64,000 nucleotides of DNA from the NCBI GenBank assembly GCA_019055375.1, contig JAHQIW010002164.1, forward strand, positions 186,001 to 250,000, in the 5' to 3' direction. Under the pieces are notes generated by a model that was given only the letters and a program-made list of their open reading frames with translations, searched no databases and was not told the origin of the DNA. Below, piece after piece: positions 1 to 60,830 of this stretch (position 1 is its first letter; every line of letters starts with the position of its first letter). Source of the stretch: Parelaphostrongylus tenuis. Its lineage: Eukaryota; Nematoda; Chromadorea; Rhabditida; Metastrongylidae. A program made the translations under genes and the position numbers.

Positions 1-3000
1 CGAAGAGACACCTCCTTCTCTGTAAATTTTCATTGCTGTTCGTAAGATTCTGTTCATCAGATTGTATAAATTTGGCTTGGAAAGTTTATGAGGTAGAAAA
101 GTTTGACTCTTCTGTTCGCACTCCGTTGCTGGGACTCGACATCAAAAATGGACGTGATGGATCGGCTGCTCCAACAAGAGGTTTGATGATCTCACTGTAA
201 AGATACACGTAGTCCTTCACTTGAGCACTCTCTGTAACAAGTACGATACTAGTAAGTAGCAGAAAAGATCAATAAAAACGAAAATAGTACACAGTTAGAG
301 CAAATGTTTCACTAGAAGCTTCAAAATCGACTTTTGAAAACTACACAAAACATATGAGCTTAATGCTAAAATTCAGGAAAATATTGGAAAAAGACGTGGA
401 GGTTTCATACCGTTATAGTTCTTAACTTTCCACCAGTGTGACCGTATAGCAACCTCGTTCTCGTTGTTTCCAGCCCAAAGCAACACAGAAGAATGGCGCT
501 TAATTCGCCATATCTGGAAGTATAATTAAAATTCTACCTTTATGGATATGCATGGAATCAAAATGTCGGTTAATCAAACGCAATCAAATGAGTGGTAGAT
601 TGAAAAATATTTCATCCAGGCGTCGAGTGCTTTTTAAAACCTCACAGTAAATATTCAAAATAATTTGAAAAAATAATGTTCAAAGCCTAAGCGAGCTTGG
701 TACGCCAGGGCCATACACACGCGTTTCGGAGGTCTCGCCCTCCTCATCAGTGACCCACGCTCCACATTAAGCTCTGCATTGTGGCCAGGAGGAAGGTGTA
801 TGTAATGACGGCACAGTGTACAATGACAACGTGCCATCAGCACTTCTCAATCGATGGATCTCAACTGGTAGAACAAAATTGATCCATGGCATCGACTGTT
901 TTCTTTTTTTTGAAAATTTTGATCTTTTGACATATTTTTATTTTTGGTTCTTAGTCTTTCACTATAGAATATTCCCAGAAATATCAATAATGATAGTGTG
1001 ATTTACTTCACAGTCAAAAAGGAACTTCAAAATAAACAGGACGAGGAATCATATATTGTGGAATAGGAAACTATGTAGTAAGTGCCTGCCCCAAAATCAA
1101 CCGTCACCGTTCAAATTAGCTCGTTCTTTACGTAAGTACTTTTTTCATTATCTCCAACCCGTTTCAGCCGTTTAGGAAAAGATGTCGCTGCTTTTGTTCA
1201 ACAATTCAGTACTCTACCAGTGTATTTTTGAGCGTTTTATGAGGTCTTTTACCTGCACTTGTGCAGTGTAATGCACGTGGTTTCGACCTTGCAGCCTTGT
1301 CAGACGAAAGGCATCGTGCAACTGACGAAGCTGCAAGGCACTACACGTGTATTGCACTGTTTAAGTGCCAATAAAAGACCTCATAAACGACTCAAAAACA
1401 CATTTTCAGACTACATTGCTTTGATCGAGCTGTTAGAAGACAGTCGAGTATAAAAGTACTTCAGTAATCTTTATTTCGAGTGTTTTATTATGACCACGCT
1501 CAAATTTGATTAGATCTCTACACTATTATCTGAGCCAGCATGTCATGTGGTCTGGTAATGGGCTCTTGTACAGCCTGATACACGTGTTTCGACCTTACAG
1601 TCTCGTCAGCCGGGCAGAACCCGTCGTCTTTCAATATTTTTTAGCCAATTCTCTGTGGGTGCACCAGTCCCCACACTGAAGGGTATCAAAGACGAACGCT
1701 CTACACTGCATGCCAATCGAGAATATCACCGAACTTACAGTGTTACACACTCAATTGCTCTTTGACTGGTGCTTTTGTCATATTAATGACTAATTGTTTG
1801 AAAAAGATTGAAAGACGACGGTTCTGCCCGGCTGACGAGACTGTAAGGTGGAAACACATGCATCGGGTGCACAAGAGTCCATTACCAGACCACATGACAT
1901 GTTGACTTAAATAATAATAAAGGGAGCTACTTCAGTAATCATTTAATCTCATAAAGCACGGAAACTTCAGTGATTTACTCTATTTCTTTAACGGTTCATT
2001 AATTGGGCTATGACAGTAAGATGAAATTTCGTTTCACAATCAAGCATTTTCGCTGGATAAAATTTATTCTTCAAAGTTTCAATGGCCATTCGATAGCGCA
2101 AATGTCGAAAATTCTAGTGATGGACTTGGCTTCTAAGAAGGACTTCGCAGTGCGCTGTAATTGCCAAAAGAAGTAGATATGAATCACTTCCGTTATCTTC
2201 GTCCTATTTCTGCCTTTCGGAAAAAAACGCATTTTCTGGTGTTCTAAGGTTTTGGTAATGATTAAATTGCTTAAATCTCAAACATTTCAAAAGTGACTTT
2301 CTCTCTAAAACGACCTGTTTGATGCGTTGTAACATTGAAAAATATAGTTACGTCTCACATTCGCACATCTTTCTTTGGACAGCCCCAGGCCTGTAGTAAC
2401 CATTCGATATAACAAGTCTCGGCAATTTTGGAGGCAAATTTGATTTTTGAAAAAACTTCTTAGTGCGCTGTAGTAATCAAAAGAAAGTAAGGTTTCGCTA
2501 AGCGCGATATTGGTACCAAACCACCGGGCTTTTGTCGGAATACGGACAGGATTTCGCAACACTAGGGCCAAGCCACCGCTCTTTTTCCGGTGTCAAATTG
2601 GCGACACCTAACTTTCTTTTGAGTGTAATAACGTACTAAGGAGTTCTTTACAAAAACTAAGTGCATTGTGGGAGCCGTCGAGATTTTTGCTATCGAAAGG
2701 TCATTGAAAGGATGAAGGAAACGTTTCCTTGGACGAAAAATGCTTGAGTAGAAACAGAGTTTTACTTTCACTCTAACAGAGCAGTAGGAAAGTAAATATG
2801 AAAATAAAGCACACCACGGAAATTCTTGTGATTTAAGTTATCGAATTACTAGTAAAATTTCAAAAAAAAAAGCAAGAAACTGATTTTTTTTTCAAGGGAA
2901 TGAACAAGGTGGAGACATCGGGAAAGTACCTTTGCATATTATTAGTCTTCTCTTAAATTTTGGCACTGGAGCAATATACAAAAAAGTTTATCAACCAGAA

Positions 3001-6000: not shown

Positions 6001-7833
6001 TAGTAAGTAATAAAAAGTACCTTATAAAATTTGGATGACATTCACCATGATATGAATAAGGAGGACAAATGGGTGGAACAAAATGTTGCCGAGATTTCTA
6101 AAAAAAACGTCGATATCACGCAATTGAAACGAACATGCGCACATTAGCATTTGAAGAAAAGTAGGACTGCAAAGAAGCAACTAGTTGCTCTCATTTAATA
6201 TCAAAGAAGAGGAAGTGTTCTACCTTTAATCACGATAGAAAGATCTATTAGTACCCTATGTAAACATAAATAGTAAAGTCACTGCTCAGCTTACATAATA
6301 TTGATCCGATTTCTCCTTGGCGTACAGAACTGGTGAGGTGAATCGAACCTCGATTTTGTTCTCTTCTCTTAATATCCCACTTACATCCACGAAGTACTCC
6401 ACAAATTGGTTGTTTGTTGATATCAAAAATTTACGGTTAAGAATTACCGACGATACTGTGTCAATACCTCGCATCCTCAACAGGAAAACGTGGAACTGAA
6501 AAGGAAGAAATATATATTTCACCACTTCCTCGAAAACAGTTCCAATTGTGTCACTGTGGAGGATCTTTTCCGTCAAAAAAAAGTCAAGGATGAGGCGTTT
6601 GGATCTACTAGGGATAAGCTGTAGATTCGACTTCATTGAGTATTGTAGAGATGACTGGTTGCATAACTGGCTTTCGTAGTAGCCTGCAAAAATCTGCTAA
6701 TGTAGCAAGGCGATGTTTTATCCTTACAGATAAGTCCGATACCAATTTTGCGATATTGCGCGCAAATTGGTTGGTTAAGTTTACAATCATCCCCGAAGCT
6801 CATTACTCACTTTATCACTTTAATTGACCCGTTTTACAGCTTTTCTCTTCTTTTTATTGGCGGCTCCCAGTACTTCCAGCATTCAATTCGTCTTCTCACG
6901 TTCATTGCTAATCAAAATTCCGCTTCTTCATGAACGTCGTAAGGAGCTGGATGAGATATCTCATTGCTTCTATAATCTCATAAGGATATAACATGTTTTT
7001 GAACTATTAGGTCTAGTACTATACAGGTACCTGTTTCGTCCTGATAGGTCTCATCAATGCACCCTCCTTCGGTTTAGCCAATTCCCTGAGGCTAAATAAT
7101 CCTCTATGTGCTACTGATGAGTTCCAGTGGGAGTAAGCAGGTAACTGTATAGCACTAGACCTAATAGCTTAAAACATGTTATATCCTTATCAGATTATAC
7201 CATCTTGAACGGTCGATAGAAGTGGTATCTATCCTCGTTGCAGTCTTGAGAATAGCCAAACTGGAGCGTTCCGTGTGGCGTTATTGACTGCGGGGTTGCA
7301 GGGGAAGGGAGGCGGCTCCACTGCGCGTCAAGCCGCGCCGAACATCGCTAGCCACTCGGACAAGCTATCTCCAATGTTAGCATTTATTATCTATAAGTGT
7401 GGAAACGGAGATTAATAAAGGATAACAAAAAAGCAGTACCTTCAAGATGCTTTTAGCGATGTAAAATGTTCTGGTATATGTCCAATTGTCTCTAGACACC
7501 CACTGGAGTGCCAAATGATTGTCTCCGTATAACGGATCAGGAATAATAGCTTTACGGTGTAGATCGGAGAACACATCACCAGGTACGTGACCTTAAGGCT
7601 TTTTTTCGCAATGTCCAGTTTATAACTCACCTTAGGTTATTTTAACATAATTGTATTGGCAACACTTATTCGAAATTTGTGTATTACGATCAAAATACTT
7701 CTGTTACTCAAAAACGATGGTAAAGCACAAAAAAACTTTTTTTCAAAACCATTTTCAATTTTCTGAACAACCGACGACTTATTAAGAGCAAATAGAATAT
7801 ACAATAAGGTATAAATGGTATTAAAGCGTTGTA

Positions 7834-12320: not shown

Positions 12321-12511
12321 TCACTAAACAAACATATGGTTTCCAATAAATCCCAGGTCCGACTAACTATTAACCTCGGCATAGTTTGGATAAATCAGTA
12401 TCTTCATCTGTTTAGCCGCTCCGAGGTGTTAATGATATTATTTATTGAATATCAGCGAAGCACATAACAATACAGTTAATAATGCAGCACGAATATTACA
12501 ACAGTCGTGGT

Positions 12512-12547
12512 GGCTAACGTTTCGGCAAGGTTCGCCATCTTCAGAGC
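12512..12547 (-). ncRNA. Hammerhead-like motif at a PLE end
   Basis: Minus strand: GGCU, CUGAAGA, U, GGC-loop-GCC, GAAACGUU, AGCC. The GGCU/AGCC arms can form stem I and stem II is GGC/GCC, but stem III is only one possible pair and one extra base precedes stem II. Known PLE hammerheads have very short helix III; assignment is tentative. Confidence 0.45.
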
Positions 12548-12772
12548 CTGGAAAGGTCAAATTGATTCGCGAATTATTAAATCGAAGTCCTTCATAACCC
12601 TAGCAGAAAATGTAAGAGATAAATTTTTTGGGTCGCATAGAAAAACTTCATTTCAAAACACTCACCGCTTGGATGTTTTAGGTCTTTCAGTTAATCATTG
12701 AAGACCTGCCACTGGGAGTCTATGATAATGTAAGAATGTGCCTGGCTCAGGTCGGGACTATTAGCCTGAGAT

Positions 12773-13165
12773 ATGGTGCTAGGTCACGCGTTATTACGAG
12801 GCATTCCTCGAGACGGCGACTGCATGAGGTCGGGTACAATTTACCTTATCTCTTGCGCGGCATGCGGGGATGAATATATTGGCGAAACGGGTAGACCACT
12901 CTGCATCCGCGTAAAAGAGCACCTAGCTGGGAAACGTAACTACGACCCAAAAACCCCACTAGGGACGCATAGGGAACAGAAGCATAATGGAGCAGATTTT
13001 AAAGTTAAAGTCACGGTCCTTGCACAGGAATCGAAAACGTCTACGCGTAAAACTTTGGAAGCCTTCTGGATTCATAGCAAAGGCCCAAAAATGAACAGCA
13101 AAGAGGAATGCCTCGTAATAACGCGTGACCTAGCACCATATCTCAGGCTAATATTCCCGACCTGA
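12773..13165 (+). CDS. GIY-YIG endonuclease of a Penelope-like element
   Basis: Open frame of 130 codons. The nuclease motif reads TIYLISCAACGDEYIGETGR, with conserved Arg in CIRVKEH and a C-terminal part with GTHREQKH and TLEAFWI. In PLEs this domain follows the reverse transcriptase and nicks target DNA. Here it stands alone between inverted ends, possibly as the remaining C-terminus of a polyprotein. The first Met may not be the native start. Related copies: 33592-33963, 31560-31870, 16140-16465, 35690-35935. Confidence 0.8.
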   Translation: MVLGHALLRGIPRDGDCMRSGTIYLISCAACGDEYIGETGRPLCIRVKEHLAGKRNYDPKTPLGTHREQKHNGADFKVKVTVLAQESKTSTRKTLEAFWIHSKGPKMNSKEECLVITRDLAPYLRLIFPT

Positions 13166-13361
13166 GCCAGGCACAGTCATACATTATCATAGACTCCAAG
13201 TGGCAGATCTTCAATGATTAACTGGACGACCTAAAATCTAAGCGTGAGTGTTTTTGAAATGAAGTTTTTCTATGCGACCCAAAAAATTTATCTCTTACAT
13301 TTTCTGCTAGGGTTATGAAGGCCTTTGATTTAATAATTCGCGAATCAATTTGACCTTTCCA

Positions 13362-13398
13362 GGCTCTGAAGATGGCGAACCTTGCCGAAACGTTAGCC
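13362..13398 (+). ncRNA. Hammerhead-like motif at the opposite PLE end
   Basis: Exact inverted copy of the motif at 12512-12547 (GGCU, CUGAAGA, GGC/GCC, GAAACGUU, AGCC), now on the plus strand. Confidence 0.45.
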
Positions 13399-13559
13399 AC
13401 CACGACTGTTGTAATATTCGTGCTGCATTATTAACTGTATTGTTATGTGCTTCGCTGATATTCAATAAATAATATCATTAACACCTCGGAGCGGCTAAAC
13501 AGAAGAAGATACTGATTTATACAAACATATGGTTGTTAATGCTCTACTGAAATAGATAA

Positions 13560-32400: not shown

Positions 32401-35400
32401 ACGAGTAAACTTTATGTACTCTGACTGACTGTTCAGCAACTCAAAGCATTTGTCCATCTACTCTTGGGTTGGGCAGACGACAAAGCAGTCATCTATGTAC
32501 TTAAACGAACAGCAAAACGTAGGGGCAACACCGACACCACCTTTTCCGCGAGCGTTCTTTAGACAGCAAGATCCCAATAACAAAGTCGGTATCAATTTTC
32601 GCATATTTTCAAACGAAGCTCTCAGAATCCTTAACCACTACCGCGAGAAAATGTTTAGTTCTAACCTAACATCAGCGCAGAAAAGCGGTATGCGACAGAT
32701 ACCGGAGCTAATAAGTTCCAAAACAATTAGACTATCAGTTAGTGACAAGGGAGAGGAGTTTGTAATAATTCCCAATCGGTTGGATATTGCGATAGTGAAA
32801 AACCACCTTGAAGACACTACACTTTGTCGCCCATCATCTGATAAGGAATTCCAAAAACGGTACGAAAATCAAACCAACAATGGGTAAAAATAGAGAGTTC
32901 GAGTGGTTTAAAGCCTTGCGTTATCTCTCAATTAAAACTTAGTCCGCCATCATGTCAAGTCTTATACTTATTAAAACTCATAAGTTGGTATGCACTGATG
33001 ATCTTTTGTCTATTCATCCATTAAATTTCAAAGCTAGACCCATCATCACTATCACTATGATCACTATCAATATAATCACTAATGTCACTATCACTATGGC
33101 CATCATCACTACCACTACTGTCAGTATCATCATTATCACTATCAGTGTCATCACTATTAGTTGCACCACCATCTCTATTAACACTATCAGTATCATCACT
33201 ATCACTATCACCACTACCAGTATCATCACTATTAGTAACATCGCTATCATTATCATCATTATCAGTATCATCACTATCACTACCATCACTATCAGTATCA
33301 TCATTTATATTTTTCTCTAAGCCAAACACGAGGTGTTGCAATGAACTTTATTTGACAGCTGACGTTTCAGCAGTTCGCCTTCTTCAGAGCCTGGAAAGGT
33401 CAAATTGTCCGCAATCCAATAAGCCAAACACCTCCAACAGTCCCTTAAAAAAATCACCAGACCTAGATTCCAATCGCATCAAGCACAAAATCAGCTCTCA
33501 ACATACTCACCGCTTTTATATGCGTTCCATTGAATGATCCAAGTGGAGATCACCGGAAGGACATCACATAGGCTCGTAATGCACTTAACCCTCAAAATAA
33601 CAGTCTTATATACTGACTCAAATCACGAGTGATAACTAGGCATTTCTCCCTGCAGTTCATAGTTGGATTGGTGGCATTAATCCAAAGTGCTTCAAGAATT
33701 TTTCGCGCTGATGTTTTTTGTTCCCGCGCAAGGATGGTGACTTCGATCTCAAAATCAACTCCGTCGTGTTTCTGTTCTCTATGCGTCCCTAGCGGGGTAT
33801 TCCTCCTAATAAGGCGTTTGTCAGCTAGGTGTTCTTCTATGCGGGCATAGAGCGGCCTACCCGTTTCGCCAACATATTTATCACTACACGCTTTGCAAGA
33901 GATTAGGTAGACTGTACCTACGCTCATGAAATCACCGTCTCTGCCGCAGGACCTATTATACAATCTTTCATTATACAGAGACGGTCATATAAGCGGTTGC
34001 GAACTAGTTGGCGTTTTAGAGTATTCGGTGGTATTTCAATATAAGCCACCGATTGCTCTAAACCCGCCTTTTAACAGCGTTTTATAGCTGTACTAATCTC
34101 ATTTGAAAAGAACGGGAGGATGAGCGGGAATTTTCCTTTTATTCGAGCTTTCTTTCCGTGGCGCACTATTTCTTCTAAACTTAAGCCGAGGGGCTACAAA
34201 TTCGTATCCATTAGAAGTGGCTATTCCCCGAGCCAATTTTACGGATTCTACTCTTTGCTACTCCCCAGTACATACGTTAGCTGCTGTTCGAAACATGTAG
34301 TTGAAATAATATTATATTGTGCATTGCATTGAAGCATGCCGAGGTTAATAGACAGTCGGTCTTGGAAATTAGTATCATCACTATTGGTGACATCACTATC
34401 ACTCTCATCACTATCACTATCATCACTATCACATATCAGTATCATCACTATCAGTAACACCACTATCATCATTATCACTATCATCACTATCACTACCACT
34501 ACTAACACTGTGATCACTATCACTGTGATCACTATCACTATGGCCACTATCACTACGTCCAATCACTGCCATCATACCATAATCATGCCAATTACTTTAA
34601 CGATCTTCTAACAAAGAAGGCGTGATTGTTTGGGGCGGGGCCAGTGGGATGGGGCCAGACACGCTTTCAGGGTCTTGGTTCTCAACCGGTTAAAGGGTTA
34701 CACTGTGCACGTGTAACGTGAAAATTTCACTTCACGTACTGCAATGATAGAATATCACTACATGTCCACTGATAGAATCACCAGACATTGTAGCGATTAA
34801 CAGTCGATTGCTCAAGGATGGTATTTTGAAAAATATCTTCATATTTACCTGTCTTCTGAGACCTCGCTCAAATGCATTTGACCTGAAAATGTGTTTTTGA
34901 GCTTTCATACCTACAGATAGATTAGCATGGTTTCCAACCCAATAATATCCCAGTTGCTAAAGCATTTCTAGTCCATCTTAGGGCGCACTCACATGTTTTT
35001 TGGATCGTTATGTAAGCAGCTCGCCGGACAGCGCATACGTGAAGGAGTTCTTGGGCGTTGCCGGCCTTTATACCAAAGTGCCAAATGCCTCTCCCTCGCA
35101 AGACGAAGAGCAATAAACATGCACGGCTTGACTTTTCAACAGCTCATTACTGTTTTGAAAGAGTGCCGGAAGTGGTGAATCTTTAGATTGTCCGCGAAGT
35201 ATTTCGGGATATGTGAGAAGGTTGGCAATGGAACAGGGACTGGTCCCGAATTCTCGTATTGCCTTCATGTCTAGAGTGGAGGCCCCGTAGCTGATCTACA
35301 ACCTTAACTCTACTGTAAATATGTAGGCGATTATTGCGTTATGTGTTCCACTTTCCAATTGATGAGCGACCAAACAGAATACGTAAAAATCACCGGTGGG

Positions 35401-45089: not shown

Positions 45090-45275
45090 CTTTGTTAACA
45101 CTGAAATTATATGATTTTGGCTTCAGTTGCGCAATTTCTTATGAACATACTGGTGTACAACTTGCCTATGCTTGCTCAAAGTTAGAACTGTGGTGAGGAC
45201 AAATTCTAACACTTCTGGTCAATAAATTTGGTGCTTAGTGCTCTAGTGCCAAAACTTATGGAATGACCTAATAAT
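45090..45275. repeat. Short mariner-derived MITE
   Basis: Ends with GCTCTAGTGCCAAAACTTATGG, the same terminal repeat as 51430-52010, but contains no helix-turn-helix sequence. Its paralogue is 52400-52640. Confidence 0.6.
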
Positions 45276-45779
45276 TATTTGTGGTTTACTATTCGCTTTA
45301 CTTATAGAGTCCGTACCTTAAAGGCCCTTTGTCCATCAAACTTTACTTCTTGTCCGCCGCCGTAGTGGCACTTAAATGATCATGAACGCTCTCTGCTACC
45401 CAGTCAGCAGCGTCTGGTGCCAAGCAGAAATTCAACATGGTACCCAACGTGATAGCTCCGGCTGGTGCGATATGCTCATCGTCTCGCTATTGTCATTGTA
45501 GGAATGTTCTAACTACTTATATTTATGAATGTTTGGTTACTGAGGGTTCACTTACACCCCCATTCTTCACGCGAATTTCCTGTGCTGCATGTCGAGCGCA
45601 TTTCAAGCTGTTGGACGTTCGGCCTTCTTATTCATGTTGTCTATTTGACGGGATCCACCGCTCAGTTTAAGCAGATTTCACTCTTTTTTATATTTGTCCT
45701 CTAGCTGTTTTACTCGTATTTTTACACCCTTTATGGAAATGTTGATTAAGGTAACCGCGTTTCTTTTCAAGTTTCAACT

Positions 45780-48700
45780 ATGGAGAAGCGCAAGCGACAG
45801 AATAATGAAGAGGATTCTCGTGACGTAGGTTGAATAATCACTGACTAGATCTATTTCATTGATTTACCAATTTTGCGCAGAGCTTTGACATCAACGAGAC
45901 TCGAACCCCCAGTTCACCCTTTCCGGCAGCGCGTGCTCTAACCAAATGCACTACCGAAGCGTGTTTTGCCACCATTCTCTCCACCCTACAATGCACAAAT
46001 TTATCAGCAACCAACAGTCAGCGGTTTGGCCTAGGCGACTGTAGTGTAATTGGTTAGAACATACTCTCCGCAATAGGCTAAATGCGGGTTTGAGTTCCGC
46101 TTGACGTTAGCTCAGCATCATTGGATATATTTGTAACGTCATACTACCGCTAAAAACGATTAAATAGAAGGAATTCGTATTCCTTTATCTCGAGTGCTCG
46201 AGATAAAGGTATAATTATGGTAAAAGTACCAGCCAATGAGCAATCGAGTGCACAACACTCTGTGTTAGGTGAATGTTTCACCTGACATAGAGTGTAAAAC
46301 GTACGTCGTCGATAACTATATATAAGGAGTGTAAGGCTCCCGAGAGAACTGACTATAAAAAGATCGACAGACGACGGGTTCTGCCCGGCTGATGAGTCTG
46401 TAAGGACGAAACACGTGTCTCGGGCTGTACAAGAGCCCTTACCAGACCACATGACATGTTGGCTCAAATAATGATGAATTGAGAAGGAATTCGATTTGTC
46501 AATTTTTGTAAAAAAAACACTCCAGGATATCTTCGCGGTCGAGGCAATCATTAACAAACGGAGAAATAAGAAGGGCAAGCCGGAGTACCTTGTGAAATGG
46601 GAGGTAAGCTTGGCCAAATGAAACTTTTTTGTGCATCTATCCTACCAGTGTTGGATCGTTTCCTTGCTAGTTCAAGCTAACACAGAATGTTGTAATCACA
46701 TGTTTTATTCTGTTATATGGTTTACTTCTAAAATTTGTTCTTCTGTATGGACTGAAGTAGATTTAATGAGTAATATCAGATTTTCGGTGTTTGTGAGCAC
46801 GTTCTCTTCCCTATCAAGATTGAAAGAGGATAAAAGATAGAGGTCCTGGCGCCGATCAGTCCCTGAGGGATGTGTCACGCATTCATGTTCGATTTTATCG
46901 GGTCGATAAGAAATTTCCTGCACTTTTTCGTTCCTGTTGATTTTTATCATGCATTTTTAAGTGTTGGTTTTGCTATCGTTCAGAGCAGCTTCTTCCGTTC
47001 ACTTTGATATGTAGCACTCATACATTTGTTCTGAAATGAAGCTGTCCCGAGAGCGAAAACGATCCTTGATGCTACACTAGTAACGTTGCGTGCCGAAAGA
47101 GAACTTCAACTCAAACGATACTTGTGTAGCATCCAAAATCCTTTTTGCACTCGGTACAGTTACATCTCAGAACAAATGTACGAATGTTTTGTATCAAAAT
47201 AACCGCAAGAAGGAGCTCTGAAATATAATAGAAACAAAAACGTATATTCATGAAAATAATCAACAAAGACGAAAAATCCTCAGAAATTTCTTGCCAACCC
47301 GATAGCTTCGTTCGAGGCGATTTGATGGATATCTGGTCTTAAAACGACTAGCAGCGTTCAACCGCAGTATCTAATGCTGATTATCATCCCAGACGAGTCT
47401 GGTGCCAATATACTAATTCCGGAAGCACGATTGGCTAGACGAGCCATGGGCACGAGAACGCACCATTGACGTCGTGTGCCGCAGTCCACCTTTGACCACT
47501 CCTCCGCATGCTCCCGTTAACAATACTCAAATATCTGAGATTTTCGCGTGCTTATCACTATCATACTTCTGCTATCGACTGCTTTTTTACAGACCCGCTC
47601 AAAATGATTTAATCTGATAAGGATATGACTTTTTTTGAGCCATAGGTCTAGTGCTATATAGGCGCCTATTTCGTCCTATTGGGACTCATCAGTAGCACCC
47701 TCCCTCGGTTCCGTCGATCCCTTGAGGTTAAATAATCCTCTAAAGGAATCGGCGCCGAGTAAAAACTAATCACCCAAACTCGGATGATGGTCTTACCTGA
47801 CTTTGTGGTGACCGGCAGTCGAGCTTACGGCTTTTAAAATGAACTATACTTCTGCTATCGACTGCTTTTTTACAGACCCGCTCAAAATGATTTAATCTGA
47901 TAAGGATATGACTTATTTTGAGCCATAGGTCTAGTGCTATATAGGCGCCTATTTCGTCCTATTGGGACTCATCAGTAGCACCCTCCCTCGGTTCCGTCGA
48001 TCCCTTGAGGTTAAATAATCCTCTAAAGGAATCGGCGCCGAGTAAAAACTAATCACCCAAAGTCGGATGATGGTCTTACCTGACTTTGTGGTGACCGGCA
48101 GTCGAGCTTACGGCTTTTAAAATGAACCATCATCCGACTTTGGGTGATTAGTTTTTACTCGGCGCCGATTCCTTTAGAGGATTATTTAACCTCAAGGGAT
48201 CGACGGAACCGAGAGAGGGTGCTACTGATGAGTCCCAATAGGACGAAATAGGCGCCTATATAGCACTAGACCTATGGCTCAAAATAAGTCATATCCTTAT
48301 CACTATCATAGTTTTCTATTTAGGGATATCCGGTAGAGGAAAGCACGTGGGAGCCCGAGGAAAACATTGAATGCCATGATCTCCTTGTAAACTTCGAGAG
48401 GAAGCGAAGTAGGGTAAGAAAAAACTGTTGTGTTCTTAACCTCTAATGTATGGTCCAAAATGCGAATAGATATTGTGAATTGATGTAATACGCTTGCAAA
48501 TTTGATATGTGAATATTCATACTTTGCATTTATCGTGTTCAATTACTGTTTTTAGAATTTCGCCCTGGAGTATATATCCCATTATGATACTTTTTTCGCA
48601 AAATGTAGTTCAAAGACAGATTGCTTTCTTTAGATGAAGAAAAATGAGATCCCCGTTCTTTCATCAAACAGTCGCAAAGAGAAGCAGCTCCTTTGCATTT

Positions 48701-48949
48701 TGGCTCTCACGGATGCGCCTGGTGAGCGTCATTTCTTGATCAAATGGAAAAACCACACTGTTGATCTGATACCAGCCGCGGAGGCCAACGTCAAGTAAGT
48801 CACCTGTAGTCCCTTTCCTCCATTTTTATTCCCTTTTTCTTGTAAATTCTCAGTGTGCGCTCTTTTTCTATGAATTGTATTCTAGATATCCGCAAGAGGT
48901 GATTCGATTTTATGAGGAAAACGTAAAGAAGCAGATGCTCCGATATTGA
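45780..48949 (+). CDS. HP1-like chromodomain/chromoshadow protein, gene C
   Basis: Exons 45780-45824, 46526-46603, 48324-48413, 48634-48794 and 48886-48949 (stop TGA), all GT-AG and in phase, giving 145 codons. Residues 1-15 are a basic/acidic tail (MEKRKRQ). The chromodomain (about 16-60) reads DIFAVEAIINKR, PEYLVKWEGYPVEESTWEP and ECHDLL; the methyl-lysine cage positions are F, W and Y. The hinge is very short. The chromoshadow domain (about 80-140) has CILALTDAPG, HFLIKWKNHTVDLIPAAEAN and YPQEVIRFYEE. HP1 proteins bind H3K9-methylated histone and recruit partners through shadow-domain dimers. Introns 1 and 2 are packed with SINEs and hammerhead elements. Not assignable to hpl-1 or hpl-2 from sequence alone. 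Confidence 0.9.
45880..46160. repeat. SINE3 in intron 1 of gene C
   Basis: Inverted tRNA-like unit (CGAACCCCCAGTTCACCC, GTGCTCTAACCAAATGC) followed by a plus unit (TAGTGTAATTGGTTAGAACAT, GGGTTTGAGTTCCGC) and the CATTGGATATATTTGTAAC tail. Confidence 0.65.
46178..46481 (+). repeat. M2 element with 12-bp target-site duplication
   Basis: Flanked by AGAAGGAATTCG at 46166-46177 and 46482-46493. The matching intron of gene D has one copy only (AGAAGGAATCCA, near 53540), the empty site. Contains one hammerhead and the CATGACATGTTGG end shared with 1480-1922. Confidence 0.82.
46383..46425 (+). ncRNA. Hammerhead ribozyme, type I (family M2, best copy)
   Basis: Stem I GCCCGG, core CUGAUGA, stem II GUC-UGUAAG-GAC, core GAAA, CAC-GUGUC (two-pair stem III, cleavage after GUC), stem I partner UCGGGC. 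A distal helix GGGUUCU (46376-46382) pairs with AGAGCCC (46432-46438) across a bulge, as in natural hammerheads that use loop contacts. Confidence 0.82.
46835..47520 (-). repeat. SINE1 interrupted by a palindromic MITE, intron 2 of gene C
   Basis: The SINE1 tail lies at 46835-46950 and the body and tRNA-like head at about 47330-47520. A palindrome at 47022-47180 (ACATTTGTTCTGAAATGAAG, inverse at the end) splits them. The same nested pair is in gene D at 54115-54830, so it is older than the duplication. Confidence 0.7.
47651..47698 (-). ncRNA. Hammerhead ribozyme, type I (M1 unit 1)
   Basis: 48 nt on the minus strand: GUGCUA, CUGAUGA, GUCC-CAAUA-GGAC, GAAA, UAG-GCGC-CUA, UA with cleavage after the A, UAGCAC. 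Stems I (6 bp), II (4 bp) and III (4 bp including A15.1-U16.1) are perfect and the core is invariant. Close to the well-known schistosome satellite hammerhead around CUGAUGAGUCC. Confidence 0.88.
47934..47981 (-). ncRNA. Hammerhead ribozyme, type I (M1 unit 2)
   Basis: Identical to the copy at 47651-47698, one repeat unit (283 bp) downstream. Confidence 0.88.
48219..48266 (+). ncRNA. Hammerhead ribozyme, type I (M1 inverted unit)
   Basis: Same 48-nt sequence in the opposite orientation, now in the sense strand of gene C. Cleavage of the pre-mRNA here would fall in intron 2, 58 bp before exon 3. Confidence 0.88.
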
Positions 48950-49174
48950 TGTCACTATTGTTGTAATTTGCTTATCTATATTCTTTTTTTTTTATCGTGT
49001 GTTGGCTCAGCTTTGAATTTCCGCTTAACACAATATGACCGGTGCGCATCGATATATTCACTTTCTTGGAATTTGTTAATTTTCTCGTATGAAAGTTTTT
49101 TGTTACTTCTGTTTTTATTAGCAGCTAATCTAACACACATCATCATGATTGGCAATTAAACAGAACATACCTCG

Positions 49175-49535
49175 CCTTTCTACTGTTTTTCAACAAACCT
49201 TGCTCAAACAACAATAATCCTATAAAAATATAACATGTTTTGAGCCATTAAGGTCTAAGTCCTGACATCGGCACCTGTTTCGTCTTGCTGGAACTTATCA
49301 GTAGCGTCGTCCTCGGTTAGAACCGATCTCGCGAGGCTGTACTCCTCTATGAAGGCATCGACGACGAACAATAAATCACCGCAAGTCAGGTGATTGAATT
49401 GCCTGACATTACAATGACCGGCAGTCGAGCTTGTGGCATTCAGTCGCTTTTTTATAGACCTTGTTTAAGCAATATAAATGTGCTAAGGACATAACATGTC
49501 GAGCCATTAAGGTTTTATTGCTAAACAACTAAGAG
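49175..49535. repeat. M1 element, decayed tandem copy
   Basis: Carries the M1 landmarks ATATAACATGTTTTGAGCC, GTTTCGTC, CTTATCAGTAGCG and GACCGGCAGTCGAGC, then a second truncated start at about 49480. The hammerhead core reads CUGAUAA, so inactive. A trace of the same insertion lies at 55735-55815 in unit 2. Confidence 0.65.
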
Positions 49536-49559
49536 TTGGTGCCTGGGAATCTGACGAAG

Positions 49560-50110
49560 TTCTATGGGGCCTTTTCTGCATTTATTGGTTGTGGCAGCGT
49601 TGGTCGAGATGCTTGAAGTAGTGGTAGTCGGTGGGCATGAGGTCCAGCGAATATGAAAGATCGAAACAGAAGTCGTAGCCCAGTTCGTTTAACTTTCGAA
49701 GCGTTCGTTGTCCTACGTGTAACTGTCAGCTAGTTCTATTTAACCGTCAATACCATGCCCCAACCTTTCTCACCCTCTCTGTTTGTTTCAAATGGTGAAT
49801 AACCGAAGACTGGTCGACGCTGGGTCTCTCTGCAACATATCGTATAGCCTTAAGAGAATCAGCTTCGATGATCACTAGCAGTTGGTCGTTGTCAACTTAT
49901 CAAGAGCGGCCATTACGCTCCTCATTTTCGAGCACCTCGTCATTTCTACGAAACTTCTTGAACCTTCGCTGCAGTGAGCATTTTTAGTAGCTCTCAAACC
50001 AGATTCTTTGTTGATGTTGCGAGTTGACTGTGCTGCTTCACAGTCTGTTGTAAACTCATGGCTGGAAGCCGCAAATACTTTGGCAATCACAAAACTTCTT
50101 TCCATAGTCT
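49560..50110 (-). pseudogene. Mariner relic with internal deletion, unit 1
   Basis: Minus reading VDNDQLLVIIEADSLKAIRY (second helix-turn-helix region), SVDQSSVIHHLKQ, then a jump to LNELGYDFCFDLSYSLDLM and DYHYFKHLDQ (catalytic end). The central transposase is missing. Confidence 0.75.
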
Positions 50111-52400: not shown

Positions 52401-52640
52401 TACGCCATTCCCTAAGTTTTGGCCACCTGAGCAATACACACTAAATTTACTGACAGCAATAACTGAAATTACATGATTTTGGCCTCAATTGAGCATTTTC
52501 TTATAAACATTCTGGTTTACAACTTGCCTATACTTGCTCAAAGTCAGAGCTGTGGTGAGGACAAATTCTAAAACTTCTGGTCAAAAAATTTGGTGCTTAG
52601 TGCTCTAGTGCCAAAACTTATGGAATGATCTAATAATTAT
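52400..52640. repeat. Short mariner-derived MITE, unit 2
   Basis: Starts CATTCCCTAAGTTTTGGCC and ends GCTCTAGTGCCAAAACTTATG; paralogue of 45090-45275. It marks the junction between the two duplicated units. Confidence 0.65.
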
Positions 52641-53239
52641 TTGTGGCTTACTGTTCGTTTTATTTATAAAGTCCGTACCTTAGAGGCCCTTAGTCTATCG
52701 AGCTACACTTCGTGTGAATACAGCTCAGAGTCCGTCGCCGTAGTGACACTTAAACGATCATAAACGCTCTCTGCCACACAGTCAGCAGCGTCGAGTGCCA
52801 AGCTGAAATTCAACGTGGTACCCAACGTGATAGCTCCGGCTTTTGTGATAAGTTCATCATGTCGCTGTCATTGTAGGGAATGTTCTGACTACTTATATTT
52901 ATGAATGCTTAGTTATCCAGGTTTCAACCAGATCCCCAAATTTTTGAATACAATTTCCTGTGCTGCAAGCTGCGCGCATTTCGAACAGTTCAACGTACAA
53001 CCTTCTTTTTTATGTGTATTTGACGAAATCCATCGCTTAGTTCTGTTGGATTGCACTTTTTTTATATTTGTCCTCTAGCTGTTTTACACGTACTTTTACG
53101 CTCTTTATGGAAAAGTTTATTAAGGTAACAGCGTTTTACATCAAATTCTAACTATGGAAAAGCGCAAGCGACAGAGTAATGAGGCGGATTCTCGTGACGT
53201 AAGTTTAGCACCATCGATAGCTTTACTTCAGTGATTTGC

Positions 53240-53540
53240 CAATTTTGTGCAGGACTTTGACGTCAGGCGAGGCTTGAACCCGCATTTCATCCTTTTCATT
53301 AGCGCTTGCTTCAATCAAATGCACTCCAAAGCGTGTTTTGCCACCACCTTCTCCACGCTACGACGCATCAGTATGCGAGCAACCAACCGTGAACAGTTCG
53401 ACACAAGCGTCGGTAGTGCAACTGGTCAAGACATGATACCATGGAAAAGATAAAACTCGGGTTCAAGTCCCGCTTAATGTCAGCTCAATATCATTGGATT
53501 TATTTGTGATATCATACCATCGCTGAAAGCGTTCATATAG
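53240..53540. repeat. SINE3 in intron 1 of gene D
   Basis: Counterpart of 45880-46160 with the same two opposed tRNA-like units and the CATTGGATTTATTTGTGAT tail, more eroded on the left arm. Confidence 0.6.
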
Positions 53541-53839
53541 AAGGAATCCAATTTGCCAGTTAGTGCGAAAAAGAACACTTCAGGATATCTAGGCTGCGTA
53601 AACAATTACGATTAAACGAAAAAGTAGAAAGGGTAAACCGGAGTACCTTGTGAAATGGCAGGTAGGCTTGGCGAAATGAAAGGTTTTGAACATCTATCAT
53701 GCCAGTGTTGGATAGTTTTTTTGCTAGTTCAAGCTATTACAGAACCTTCAAATCGCATATTTTACAGTGGTGTATGGTTCATTTCAAAAACTTATTTTTT
53801 TCTATATGAGTTAGAGTAGTTTCATAAGTAAATTCAGAT

Positions 53840-54061
53840 AAGGATATGACATATTTTGAGCCATAGGTCTAGTGCTATATAGGCTCCTATTTCGTCCTAT
53901 TGGGACTCATCAGTAGCACCCTCCCTTGGTTCCGTCGATCCCTTGAGGTGAAACAATCCTCCAAAGGAACCGACGCCGAGTAAAATTAAGCACCCAAAGT
54001 AGGATGATGTTATTACCTGACTTTGTGGTGACCGGCAGTCGAGCTTACGGCTTTTTAGCAG
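53840..54061 (-). repeat. M1 element, single unit with 14-bp target-site duplication
   Basis: Flanked by AAGTAAATTCAGAT at 53826-53839 and 54062-54075. Gene C has an uninterrupted related site near 46770 (GAGTAATATCAGATTTTCG). Runs from AAGGATATGAC to GGCTTTTTAGCAG; lacks about 60 bp at one end relative to the 283-bp unit. Confidence 0.82.
53872..53919 (-). ncRNA. Hammerhead ribozyme, type I (M1, gene D intron)
   Basis: As the 47651 copy but with stem III loop GAGC instead of GCGC; all three stems and the core remain intact. Confidence 0.87.
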
Positions 54062-54114
54062 AAGTAAATTCAGATTTTGTGTGATTTTCTGAGCACGGTC
54101 TTTTCCTTATCAAC

Positions 54115-54830
54115 AATACAAGAAAAAAAAGGATAAAGCTGTTGGGGCTGATCAATCATTAAGAGATGTGCCCTGCATTTGTGTTCAATTTTGATTGGGC
54201 TAACAAGAAATTTCTCGGACTTTTTCGTTTTTGCTGAATATTGGTCATGCGTATGAAGTGTTGGTTTTTGCTATCGTTTAAATCAGCTTCTTGCGATCAC
54301 TTTGATATGTAAACTTATGAATTTGTTCTAAGATGGAATTGCCTCGAGAGCAAAAACGATCGTTGATGCTACACGAGTATCATTTGGAATCAACTGCTGC
54401 TTTGGCACCCAAGGATACTCGACTCACGTGGCATCAACAGTCGTTTGTGCTCTAGGGACAATTGCATCTTAGGTCAAGTTCATAAGTTTATATAGTTAAG
54501 TAACCGCAAGAAGCTGCGCTGAACTATAGGTTTGATGAAAACGTATTTGCATGGAAAATAAACAACAAAGACGAAAAATTACGCGAAATTTTCTTGCCAA
54601 TCCAGAAGCCTCGTTTAAGGTGATTTGATGCTTATCCGGCTTTAGAATGACTCGCAACGACTTACCGCTGTATCGAACCAGTGCTGTTTTATTCTCCCAG
54701 ACAAGTCTGGTGGCAGTATACCGACCTCCGAGGGATGAATGGCTCGGCGCCACTTGCACGTGATCGCACAATCGGCGTCGTGTGCCGCATTGCACCTATA
54801 ACCACTGCGCTGCATACGTTCCCATCAACA
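54115..54830 (-). repeat. SINE1 interrupted by a palindromic MITE, intron 2 of gene D
   Basis: SINE tail 54115-54260, palindrome about 54314-54490 (GAATTTGTTCTAAGATGG and inverse), then SINE body and tRNA-like head 54600-54830 (CTCCCAGACAAGTCTGG; CTATAACCACTGCGCTGCAT). Same nesting as in gene C. Confidence 0.7.
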
Positions 54831-55829
54831 ATGCTTGCAAATATTTGAGAGGTTTATGCGAGTATCACCACTATATTTTTCTATTGAGGGATCTCCGGTA
54901 GAGGAAAGCACGTGGGAGCCCGAGGAAAGCATTGAATGCCATGAACTCCTTGTATATTTCGAGAGAAAGCGAAGTAGAGTGGGAAAAATTGTTTTCTTAA
55001 CTTCTAATCTATCGTCGATTATGTGAATAGGTATTGTAAATTGATCTAATACCCTTGCAAGTAAGATATGTGGAAATTTATACCTTGGAAAATCGTATTT
55101 TTTTGCTGTCTTTACAACTCACAAGTAGAGTACATTTTCCATCATAATAATTGTTTCGTAAAATGTAGCTCAAAAACAGGCTTCTTTTTTCAGGTTGGAG
55201 CAAACATGTCCCTTGTTCCGTCATCGGATAATGGTGAGGAGAAGCAGCTCCATTGCATTTTCTCTGTCACAGATGCGCCTGGTGAGCTGCATTTCTTGGT
55301 CAGATGGAAAGACGGCAGTGTTGACCTAATACCAGCCAAGGAGGCCAATGTCAAGTAAGTCACCTGCAGTCCTTTTCCTCGAAGTTTATTCCACTTTTTC
55401 TCGAGCTCTGTCTGCGTTCTTCCTTTATGAGTTGTATTCTAGATATACGCAAGAGGTGATTCGATTTTATGAAGGATTAGCAAAGAGGCGAAGACTTCGA
55501 TTTTGATGTCACTCTTATTGTAATTTGCCAATATGTCCTCGTATTTTTATCTTGGATTAGCTTAGCCATGCTCTTCTTCTCAATGCGATATAATCGGTGT
55601 ACATCGTTATACTCACTTTCTTAAAGATTGTTAATTTTGTTGTATGAAAATTTTTTGTTATCTTTGTGTTTTGCTGACAGCTGATCTAACACACGTCACC
55701 ATGGTTGGCACTTAATCCGAAACGTACCTTTCCATTCGACCGCTTTTTACAGACCTTGCTCAAAGAATAATGATCTGATTAGGATATAACATGCCGAGCC
55801 AATAAGGTCTAACTACAATACAGTGCAGA

Positions 55830-56420
55830 GATTGATAACTTGAAATTTGACAAACTCCTTGAGGACCTTTTCTGCATCCTATTGACTGTGTCAGCATTTT
55901 CTCTGTGAATAGTTGTCAAGATGCTTGAACTAGTGGTAGACTGTGGGCGTGAGGTCCGGTGAATATGAATGATGAAACAAAACTCGTAGTCCAATTCGTT
56001 CAACTTCAAAGCTTTCGATGTGTTACGTGTTACTGTCAGCTACGTTTAATTGACCATCATTACTTTGCACCAACCTTTTTCACCCTCTCACTTTTTTCAA
56101 ATAGCAAACGATCGAAGGCTGGTCAACGCTGAGTTTCTTTGCAACATCTCGTATAGTCTTAAGAGAACCAGCTTCGATCATTGCTCTCAGTTGGTCGTTG
56201 TCAACTTATCAAGACCGGCCATTACACTGCTCATTTTCAAGCAACCCGTCCTCTCTACAAAACCTCTTAAACCTCTGCTGCAGTAAGCATTTTAAGCAGC
56301 TGTTAAGCTAAATTGTTTGTTGATGTTGCGAGTTGTCTGTTCTGCTTCACAACCTATTTTGGACTCGGCGAAACCGCAAGTACTTTTGCACTTACCGAAC
56401 TCCTTACCATAGTTTAGAAT
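55830..56420 (-). pseudogene. Mariner relic with internal deletion, unit 2
   Basis: Paralogue of 49560-50110 with the same deletion; shares TCAGTTGGTCGTTGTCAACTT and the LNELDYEFCF region. More stops than the unit 1 copy. Confidence 0.72.
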
Positions 56421-58374: not shown

Positions 58375-58600
58375 TAGTTTAGGCATTGGTTAAATTCTTA
58401 CTTGGCAGTGTGCCAATTGTCAAATAGCTATTTGGCACTGCCACAGGCGACATGACATCTTGAAACCCTGTGCCTCTGGCGCACTACACCCACTCACACG
58501 CTTTTATTTGCTCGCTGCCTGTGTGCCTCTCAATCTCTCACCCATGACCACCATGTTGGTATAGAAGGCCCTTTTAAAGAACGCTCATCTCTTTGGCTCA
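58375..58600 (+). repeat. Repeat P, copy 4
   Basis: Ends at about 58600, where the minisatellite begins; TATA-like position reads TTGGTATAGAAGGCCC. Confidence 0.6.
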
Positions 58601-59885
58601 ACTCGGATATTGGCTGCTTATAACATGGAAGTGCATTGTGTGATCGCATACTGGGTGCTTATCACGTAGATGTGCGTTGACGGCACGTCACATTCCGCCT
58701 AGTACGTGAAACTTCGATGAGAGCACGGCACATTGGCTGCTTGTAACAAGGAAGTGTATTGTGTGATCGCATACTGTGTGCTTATCACGTAGAAGGCTGC
58801 TTAGTACGTGGAACTCCGCTGACAGCACGGCACATTGGCTGCTTATCACATGGAAGTGTATTGTGTGGTCGCATACTGGGTGCTTATCACGTAGATGTGC
58901 GTTGACGGCACGTCATATTGGCTGCTTACTACGTGAAACTGCGATGAGAGCACGGCACATAGGGCTACTATGTACGTGGAACTCCTTTGAGAACACGGCA
59001 CATTGCCTACTTACTACGTAAAAAATGCGGCAAGAGTACGGCACATTGGCCGCTTAGAACTTATAACTACGTTGAGAGCACGGCACATTGCCTGCTCATT
59101 ACGTGGAACTGCTTTGAGAGCACGTCACAATGGCTCCTTTTACGTGAAACTGGAACGAATGTACGGCAAATTGGCTGCCTAGAACTTGGAAGCACTTTAA
59201 GAGCACTTCACTTTGGCTACTTACTACGTGAAACTGCGACGAGAGCGCGGCACATTGGGCTGCTATGTACGTGGAACTCCTTTGAGAGCGCGTCACATTG
59301 GCTACTTACAAGGTGAAACTGCGACGAGAGTACGGCGCATTGGCGGCTCATAACATGGAAGTGTATTGTATGATCGCATACTGGGTGCTTGTCACGTAGA
59401 TGTACGTTGACGGCACGTCATATTGGCTGCTTACTACGTGAAACTGCGATGAGAGCACGGCACATTGGGCTGCTAAGTACGTGGAAACTCCTTTGAGAGC
59501 ACGGCACATTGGCTGCTTAGTACGTGGAACTGCGAAGTGCGCATGGCACAATGGCTGCTTACTAAGTGAAACTACGATGAGAGTGCGGCACATTGGCTGC
59601 TTAGAACTTGGAACTACATTGACAGCACGGCACATTGGCTGTTTTGTACGTAGAAGTGTAGTGTGTGATCGCATACTGGGTGCATATCACGTAGATGTGC
59701 GTTGACGGCACGTCACATTGGCTACTTACTACGTGAAAATGCGGCAAGAGTACGGCACATAGGCTGCTTACTACGTGAAAATGCCATGAGAGCACGACAC
59801 ATTTGTTACTTCCTGATTGAATGTGCTTTGTTTGACCACATATTGGGTGCTTATCACGTAGAAGTGCGTTGTGAGCACGGCGCAT
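58600..59885. repeat. Minisatellite, unit about 41-44 bp
   Basis: Head-to-tail units built on GAGAGCACGGCACATTGG, CTGCTTACTACGTG and AAACTGCGAT, with a longer recurring variant containing TGTGATCGCATACTGGGTGC. Frames open across it on both strands are repeat artefacts. Confidence 0.9.
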
Positions 59886-59889
59886 TGGC

Positions 59890-60830
59890 ATCAGACAGTT
59901 GGTAGAAGTAGTGAATACCAATTTCAAAGCTGTGTCCAGGCTGTGAATGATGTATGCGTCGACGAGCCGATGGTACCATTCAGAGGAAGACCCAAGCTCC
60001 ACCAGCATGCTCCTTGCAACAGGAACATATTCGGTATAAAGCTCTTCAAAGTTTGTGGTTAAAAGCGGTTACACGCATGAGACACTGATCTACACAGGTG
60101 CGTATACAACTTTCAGATTCTGCGAGCCTTCATCGGATCGTGTGACGATGGATTTCATGGAGTTCCTCCTAGATCAATTGAGGCACCTTTACGTCGGCTA
60201 CTGGTACATCATGTTTCCCTAGAGCAGAAGGACTGTTGCAGAAGAATACATACCTGACCGGAACCTGTAAGAAAAGGCGGGAATGTATGCCAATGGAGTT
60301 CGTGCAAGGGAAAGTGCGTATGGACGAGTGGAGAGCTATGCAAAATCTAGCGTGATGGTAGTTAGATGTTTGTACAAGACAGAAATGCAGATGCGCTCGA
60401 CAGCATACTGCTCCGACGTGAATTTGGACACAACGAAGCTTGAGTTGTTGAAAGCTACAACAAGGTTAAGGAGCTTGTGGATCTCACGGACCTGATAGCT
60501 GCCTATTCTACATTCTTTCGGAGTTTGAAAAATGGTACCTGCATTTGGCTAGTTTTTGGCGACATGATCTATCCCTTCTTCAGGTACTTGCGTATTCTCT
60601 TTCATTTCGTTCACAACATGCTGCCACTGATCGCTTATGAAACGCACTGCGCTAACAAATAACGAATCACATTCAATAAGTTTAAGGAGGCAGTTCATGT
60701 CATCTATCTGAAAGACGATTCTTCTTCAGCGACGCCTATCGGCGTTCTCGATAAGGTTTCACGCGAAAACCGTCGCTCATATGAGTGCTATAAAAAATGT
60801 CGACTGAGAAAGGCTCCTTTTATGCTCGAT
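59890..60830 (+). pseudogene. piggyBac-type transposase, broken
   Basis: Reads SCVQAVNDVCVDEPMVPFRG, whose D in VDEPM sits at the first catalytic aspartate position of the piggyBac DDD triad, then NIFGIKLFKVCG. In other frames follow ELVDLTDLIAAYSTFFRSLK and FHFVHNMLPLIAYETH, matching the late GGVDLxD region of the family. At least four frame breaks. The following open stretch 60822-61145 was not recognised and may or may not belong to it. No TTAA-flanked ends were located. Confidence 0.7.

Follow-up and report, generated by a model that had tools for sequence, protein, structure and literature searches.

Animal retrozymes are described, in the excerpted text of a 2020 review, as showing no conserved motif that would point to an autonomous element mobilising them (PMC7761336). 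Penelope-like elements (PLEs) have been named strong candidates for this role, on the basis of shared features only, in the consulted sections of PMC7229834. The purified protein of a lizard PLE cuts and extends both DNA strands in vitro, and its two internal start sites delimit the known optional genomic "tail" (PMC11167929). In rotifers, several PLE inserts carry inverted terminal repeats, one repeat bearing a tail, as well as duplications of 8–10 bp, and the head-to-head form of PLE insertions has so far been explained by self-priming (both from the available part of PMC3846280). Nematodes go unmentioned in PMC7229834, PMC6155905, PMC7761336 and PMC11722881, and the literature on hammerhead ribozymes and nematodes gave no title on native nematode hammerheads among the matches listed; earlier reports may exist. 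The ends of retrozyme insertions constitute reaction-product evidence on which element moves animal retrozymes, and are analysed here for an insertion in a strongylid nematode and for its relatives.

The insertion lies at positions 47566–48295 of the window, that is, the whole stretch of 64,000 nucleotides that was analysed. The initial annotation described two direct units and one inverted unit between 15-bp direct repeats in an intron. Self-comparison of the window recovers the two direct 283-nt units (47563–47845 and 47846–48128, 99% identical). The inverted unit is present as well, but falls short of full unit length: the arm measures ~170–177 nt, and 48126–48302 is 99% complementary to 47898–48074. 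The 15-bp repeats were found as described, and their sequence, CTTATCACTATCATA, has exactly two occurrences in the 64 kb. The two arms overlap by 5 nt (ACCAT) at their junction, and the first 7 nt of the right duplication, CTTATCA, also match the unit at one of the two start sites defined below (site A), which we read as priming microhomology.

The unit comprises 283 nt with 44% GC and a longest ATG-initiated ORF of 25 aa. It displays the traits of animal retrozymes, namely a type I hammerhead, a unit of 170–400 nt, a GC content below 50%, the absence of an ORF, and tandem and dispersed copies; the 15-bp duplication agrees with the trait of duplications longer than 4 bp. Together with the empty paralogous site and the many near-identical dispersed copies described below, these sequence features support the assignment of the insertion to a nematode retrozyme, as originally suggested.

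The three identical 48-nt type I hammerheads of the initial annotation correspond to matches of Hammerhead_1 (RF00163), and the core is visible in the alignment. The covariance model thus finds the motifs in the window, each with 29.5 bits (E = 0.0034 for the 64-kb search), a score below the Rfam gathering score of 34. Because the three are copies of one motif, they do not count as independent evidence. Unit coordinates (u1–283) are given in the hammerhead sense, with the predicted cut at u189/190. The pairing of hammerhead and hairpin was assessed in ten sequences, nine from family A, decayed ones included, and one family B hammerhead (L058 omitted, hairpin side only). Pairing is kept in 81% as against 30–40% for slid partners, and covariation in this set, with its decayed copies, is not above that of shuffles (361 of 500 as high). 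Rfam matches to mir-5583 and mir-434 at 48044–48156 lie far under gathering and were rejected; they probably reflect the inverted arms.

Exon peptides of the host gene, joined manually, match the Chromo (73 bits) and Chromo_shadow (60 bits) domains, and the gene is therefore called HP1-like. The intron position in an HP1 gene stands in this form, while its designation as the second intron depends on a putative first exon. The presumed exon starts 13 nt past the end of the right duplication, with the splice site placed by eye. The HP1-like region at 45.1–50 kb (also given as 45100–50000) is paralogous to 52.5–56.3 kb (52460–56300), in blocks that are 72–79% identical, and each gene copy has private insertions of ribozyme elements. 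The paralog presents an empty site, with the target found once as GTATCACCACTATAT near 54861–54876.

Further copies in the window belong to two families, A and B (Table 1). The family B hammerhead scores 34.9 bits, above the Rfam gathering score. The hairpin and tail regions of both families resemble each other on inspection, yet the scores of 144 and 142 are below the shuffle maximum of 159. Other repeats of the window are a tandem array of diverged ~42-bp repeats (58560–59930), two arrays of low complexity that repeat every 15 bp (33010–33320 and 34360–34580), and a large dispersed direct repeat (4134–6506 and 27845–30210) whose pieces are 79–96% identical. An endonuclease–reverse transcriptase of the LINE (RTE-like) type, recognised by eye from ORF translations, lies at 19590–21640 (+).

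Table 1. Retrozyme and Penelope-like features of the window
Feature	Position	Strand	Remarks
Family B head-to-head copy with a B-ended and an A-ended arm (classes by eye)	1470..1927	.	13-bp duplications 1457–1469 / 1928–1940
Old, decayed family A head-to-head copy	6973..7212	.	
PLE insertion with head-to-head arms	12342..13520	.	GIY-YIG endonuclease ORF 12770–13162 (+); 14-bp duplications 12328–12341 / 13521–13534; B-ended left, A-ended right
PLE endonuclease remnant	33595..33984	-	GIY-YIG 32.2 bits, above cut-off
Family B retrozyme	46178..46481	+	Hammerhead 46383–46425 (+); 12-bp duplications 46166–46177 / 46482–46493; absent from paralog
Left 15-bp target-site duplication, CTTATCACTATCATA	47551..47565	.	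Single copy in paralog
B-primed arm, ~two 283-nt units	47566..48128	-	Hammerhead sense on - strand; start at site B (u283/1)
Type I hammerhead 1	47651..47698	-	RF00163 29.5 bits; cut 47657/47656 predicted from motif
Predicted hairpin, GCUCAAAAU...AUUUUGAGC	47880..47923	-	Site A in loop; computed folds
Type I hammerhead 2	47934..47981	-	RF00163 29.5 bits; cut 47940/47939 predicted from motif
A-primed arm, truncated inverted unit (u55 to ~u224–231)	48126..48295	+	Head-to-head with B-primed arm
Type I hammerhead 3	48219..48266	+	RF00163 29.5 bits; cut 48260/48261 predicted from motif
Right 15-bp target-site duplication	48296..48310	.	
Old family A copy, ~70%, more than one unit	49159..49520	-	Extension past 49440 by eye
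Single-armed family A copy in paralogous gene, A-primed	53840..54061	-	14-bp duplications 53826–53839 / 54062–54075; absent from first gene copy

A search of the 481.5-Mb assembly with the 283-nt unit returned 2571 first-look candidates, of which 40 were scored and gave 148 matches, many of them 99–100% identical. The occurrence of the repeat elsewhere in the genome, on which the initial annotation had made its reading depend, is borne out by these many near-identical dispersed copies. For family B, 40 of 3816 first-look candidates were scored, with 85 matches. Insertion ends were studied in 39 insertions, consisting of 39 further clusters plus two window copies, minus L019 and L022, which are same-contig mirror copies. 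This is a biased sample, the loci coming from the 40 scored of 2571 candidates and having been picked by identity to the full unit. Since they were found through full-unit matches, arm-length distributions were left uninterpreted. Contigs C4390, C1308, C2618, C1811 and C369 contain mirror-image copy pairs, a sign that these contigs may be palindromic, perhaps as an artefact of assembly.

Far from being an oddity, an inverted second arm proves to be the usual state, with 29 of the 39 insertions being two-armed and 10 one-armed. The arms are oriented head-to-head in 29 of 29 cases. The outer ends fall at site A (u219–245) or site B (u276–16), ~46 nt apart, in 67 of 68 arms, where the two site windows make up 18% of the unit and were set after seeing the ends; 16 of the 68 inner ends lie inside the same windows. 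Both ends could be classified in 28 of the two-armed insertions, and 27 of these have one arm starting at each site (p ~1e-7 if the ends are independent). Exact duplications of at least 10 nt flank 33 of the 39 insertions, compared with 1 of 300 mismatched flank pairs, and lie immediately next to the unit sequence, without intervening poly-A. The priming 3' ends match the unit over a mean of 2.2 nt at site A (n = 30) and 2.0 nt at site B (n = 26), versus 0.5 nt in permuted data (maximum 1.2). Earlier values for the overlap between duplication and element, 4.9 and 2.7 nt, were inflated by BLAST extension and have been discarded.

For the inner ends, the offset between the two arms (median 65 nt, n = 29) is compatible with a uniform distribution (KS p = 0.55). 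Ten of the 29 joins have an overlap of 1–5 nt, one is a 41-nt palindrome, and 18 contain a filler of 1–152 nt, in some cases copied from sequence adjoining the join. Joining by polymerase theta is marked by a short overlap or a filler at random join points, and the joins observed here resemble such products.

The arms reach 1489 nt, equivalent to 5.3 units. The predicted cleavage site lies within 67 of the 68 arms (36/36 A arms, 30/31 B arms, and the one unclassified arm), the sole exception being the 57-nt arm of L016. Four of the 68 inner ends are located within 5 nt of the predicted cleavage site. Because the arms cross this site and few inner ends occur there, the template must have been closed or uncut at that point. 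Rare substitutions were compared over 36 loci and 14 variants, with L012, L025, W53, L019, L022, arms below 96%, arm ends, u1 and u224–245 left out beforehand. Carriers form 31 same-locus pairs (null mean 2.5, maximum 10), and 15 opposite-arm pairs over the 36 loci (null mean 1.2, maximum 6). The rare variants common to both arms, together with the read-through of the cut site, point to one closed or uncut RNA that was copied from both DNA strands, and a single RNA sequence was probably the template for both arms. The sharing of variants could in part also reflect gene conversion from one arm to the other.

The window also contains PLE sequences. The insertion at 12342..13520 has hammerhead-like cores by pattern only, with no Rfam match there, and its endonuclease reaches 21.4 bits for GIY-YIG, just under the cut-off of 22.6. 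Among the three PLE endonuclease stretches of the window, the Pfam GIY-YIG profile passes one, places one just below the cut-off and misses one. No PDB relative was found by sequence. A genome search with the endonuclease gave 19368 first-look candidates; 150 were scored and all 150 matched. The endonuclease-linked tails end at T413–430 or T458–467, ~47 nt apart, in 30 of the 30 loci fetched, which amount to ~25 distinct insertions, as L059, L060, L061 and L075 have one flank in common, a second flank is common to L071 and L072, and L053 together with L056 makes up the two arms of one insertion (C5095). The remaining flanks beyond the ends differ from one another. The stretch between the two end sites corresponds to the published PLE tail, which lies between the two starts of reverse transcription (PMC11167929). 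A second subfamily, with six copies, ends three times near T406–424 and three times at T459–465.

All four PLE copies for which both ends are available combine A and B (L050, L069, C5095 and, less surely, L052). Neighbouring endonuclease matches of opposite orientation are head-to-head in 13 of 14 pairs among the matches listed, with C1048 arranged the opposite way. A stop-free PLE frame of 552 aa matches RVT_1 (40.7 bits) and GIY-YIG (18.5 bits, below the cut-off), and the named sequences among the best 120 protein relatives of the PLE are from the strongylids Ancylostoma, Necator, Haemonchus, Nippostrongylus, Angiostrongylus and Heligmosomoides, which is the ground for placing the genome among the strongylid nematodes. 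At L058 (2150–2467), a PLE copy ending at its own site A adjoins an old retrozyme A copy that starts near its own site A. This junction would represent either a PLE insertion at that place or a template switch of two RNAs at the equivalent place; a template switch, if true, would be direct evidence for shared machinery.

The single ORF with reverse transcriptase and GIY-YIG domains that characterises PLEs is found in PLE copies elsewhere in the genome. The retrozyme unit has no ORF, and is therefore not a PLE. Its insertions display the PLE pattern of two start sites flanking an optional tail, head-to-head arms, a one-sided tail and a short duplication, and site B is located downstream in the predicted folds of both elements. 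These insertion ends suggest that the retrozyme borrows the PLE copying machinery. We consider it likely, judging from sequence, that a circular retrozyme RNA is inserted by a GIY-YIG PLE enzyme through two-strand target priming.

Such a process would begin with the transcription of tandem copies and the cleavage of the RNA to unit length by the hammerhead, perhaps in a dimeric form via the 12-nt palindromic stem III, after which a host ligase would close the unit-length RNA. The PLE protein would recognise the hairpin ~16–60 nt downstream of the cut site and make a staggered cut that gives rise to the 10–16 nt duplications. Both 3' ends, with ~2 nt of pairing, would act as primers on a single RNA, as the ends of the insertions indicate; reverse transcription would start from one of them at site A, within the hairpin, and from the second at site B, ~46 nt further 3'. 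The cDNAs would run toward the RNA 5' end, past the cleavage site, for up to several rounds; their lengths are observed and the circle is presumed. The cDNA ends may then be joined at random points by a polymerase-theta-like activity, to which the sequence of the joins points, and the outcome would be head-to-head arms between copies of the duplication.

Several observations count against insertion by the PLE enzyme. The similarity between retrozyme A and the PLE tail is not beyond that of shuffles (69 of 500 as high), nor is it for further PLE tails (14 of 200 for L080, 42–171 of 200 for the others). Since no sequence similarity between retrozyme and PLE was detected, recognition of the hairpin by the PLE protein is something we infer. 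In predicted folds, site A of the retrozyme lies in a hairpin loop and that of the PLE in a stem-closed region that is partly paired. The hammerhead fold of the monomer merely ties with a competitor (-10.1 versus -10.2 kcal/mol), and 60-nt folds prefer pairings other than the hammerhead; moreover, in vitro PLE insertion proceeds without need for hammerhead cleavage (PMC11167929). Among the two-armed insertions, L018 is A+A and L012 has one unclassified end. Six of the 39 insertions have no exact 10-nt duplication, and the 21-nt duplication of L015 is a TAA repeat. The duplications of the four two-ended PLE copies measure 14, 13, 6 (weak) and 11 (AT repeat) nt, the last two being the ones at odds with the proposal.

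The template of the PLE route might be an uncut linear multimer transcribed from genomic units in tandem, which we regard as unlikely. The initial annotation had concluded on a multimeric template, and the multimer is kept here as a rival; a circle fits the data better, with the two not fully separated. Units of an array could owe their common variants to the source array, and some variants differ among units of one array (L014, L031), which also favours the multimer. Against it, arms of 5.3 units and the crossing of the cleavage site in 67 of 68 arms would require long uncut RNAs despite the ribozyme, an argument that is not decisive. It appears quite improbable that a LINE, such as the reverse transcriptase-encoding element at ~19.6–21.6 kb, mobilises the retrozyme and that the inverted arms arise by twin priming. 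The window does hold a LINE-like ORF, and twin priming is known for L1; however, no poly-A lies between duplication and unit, the start sites are two fixed ones ~46 nt apart, as in the PLE copies, the class of element mapped for comparison, and each arm has its own site in 27 of 28 insertions.

Snap-back self-priming of one cDNA, as a source of the inverted arm, was proposed for PLE palindromes in rotifers (consulted part of PMC3846280) and finds some echo in L033, with equal inner ends, and in L013 and L014, where they are nearly equal. With such an origin, one would not anticipate a fixed end of the second arm next to the duplication, and the inner-end offset, being compatible with a uniform distribution, is a poor fit, so that we hold this origin to be very improbable. 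We give practically no credence to the inverted structure being an assembly or library artefact. Mirror-image copy pairs do occur on the five contigs named above, as palindromic contigs would show, but the focal insertion has dissimilar outer flanks, which bear a direct duplication that is single in the paralog, and the arms are unequal in length and end class.

With insertion by the PLE enzyme as the preferred reading, we lean, with some reserve, towards a wider view in which animal retrozymes are satellites of PLEs. The closed circle made by the ribozyme would mimic the start hairpin of the PLE, and both cut strands would copy one circle at once, each from its own start site; joining of the cDNAs would follow after several turns. 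The rule of two sites with one arm each, and the random inner joins, bear on the question of why PLE insertions are head-to-head. If true, rolling-circle, two-strand target-primed insertion would also explain the head-to-head form and the one-sided tail of PLEs.

In L1 twin priming, both nicked strands prime on one RNA and an inversion results, which is the likeness to the focal element. The differences are that the inverted form here constitutes the majority of the loci examined and that the two strands start from different fixed internal sites. Plant LTR retrozymes, as far as the excerpted PMC7761336 describes them, are alike in having a hammerhead, in being non-autonomous and in their circular RNA, which is presumed here; they differ by type III hammerheads, LTRs, a PBS and PPT, and 4-bp duplications. 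The animal non-LTR retrozymes of coral, mussel and axolotl (consulted sections of PMC7229834) share the type I hammerhead, the 170–400 nt unit, tandem units, GC below 50%, the lack of an ORF, duplications longer than 4 bp and the presence of PLEs in the same genome. In comparison with these, most of the insertions examined here are head-to-head with two fixed starts. GIY-YIG PLEs (PMC11167929, and PMC3846280 in the part available) are alike in their two start sites bounding an optional tail (30–40 bp there, ~46 nt here), in their head-to-head arms with the tail on one arm, in the hammerhead upstream of the start sites and in their short duplications, of 8–10 bp in the rotifer cases of PMC3846280. 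Unlike them, the focal element has no ORF, a hammerhead of canonical size, no detected sequence similarity and a unit of 283 nt.
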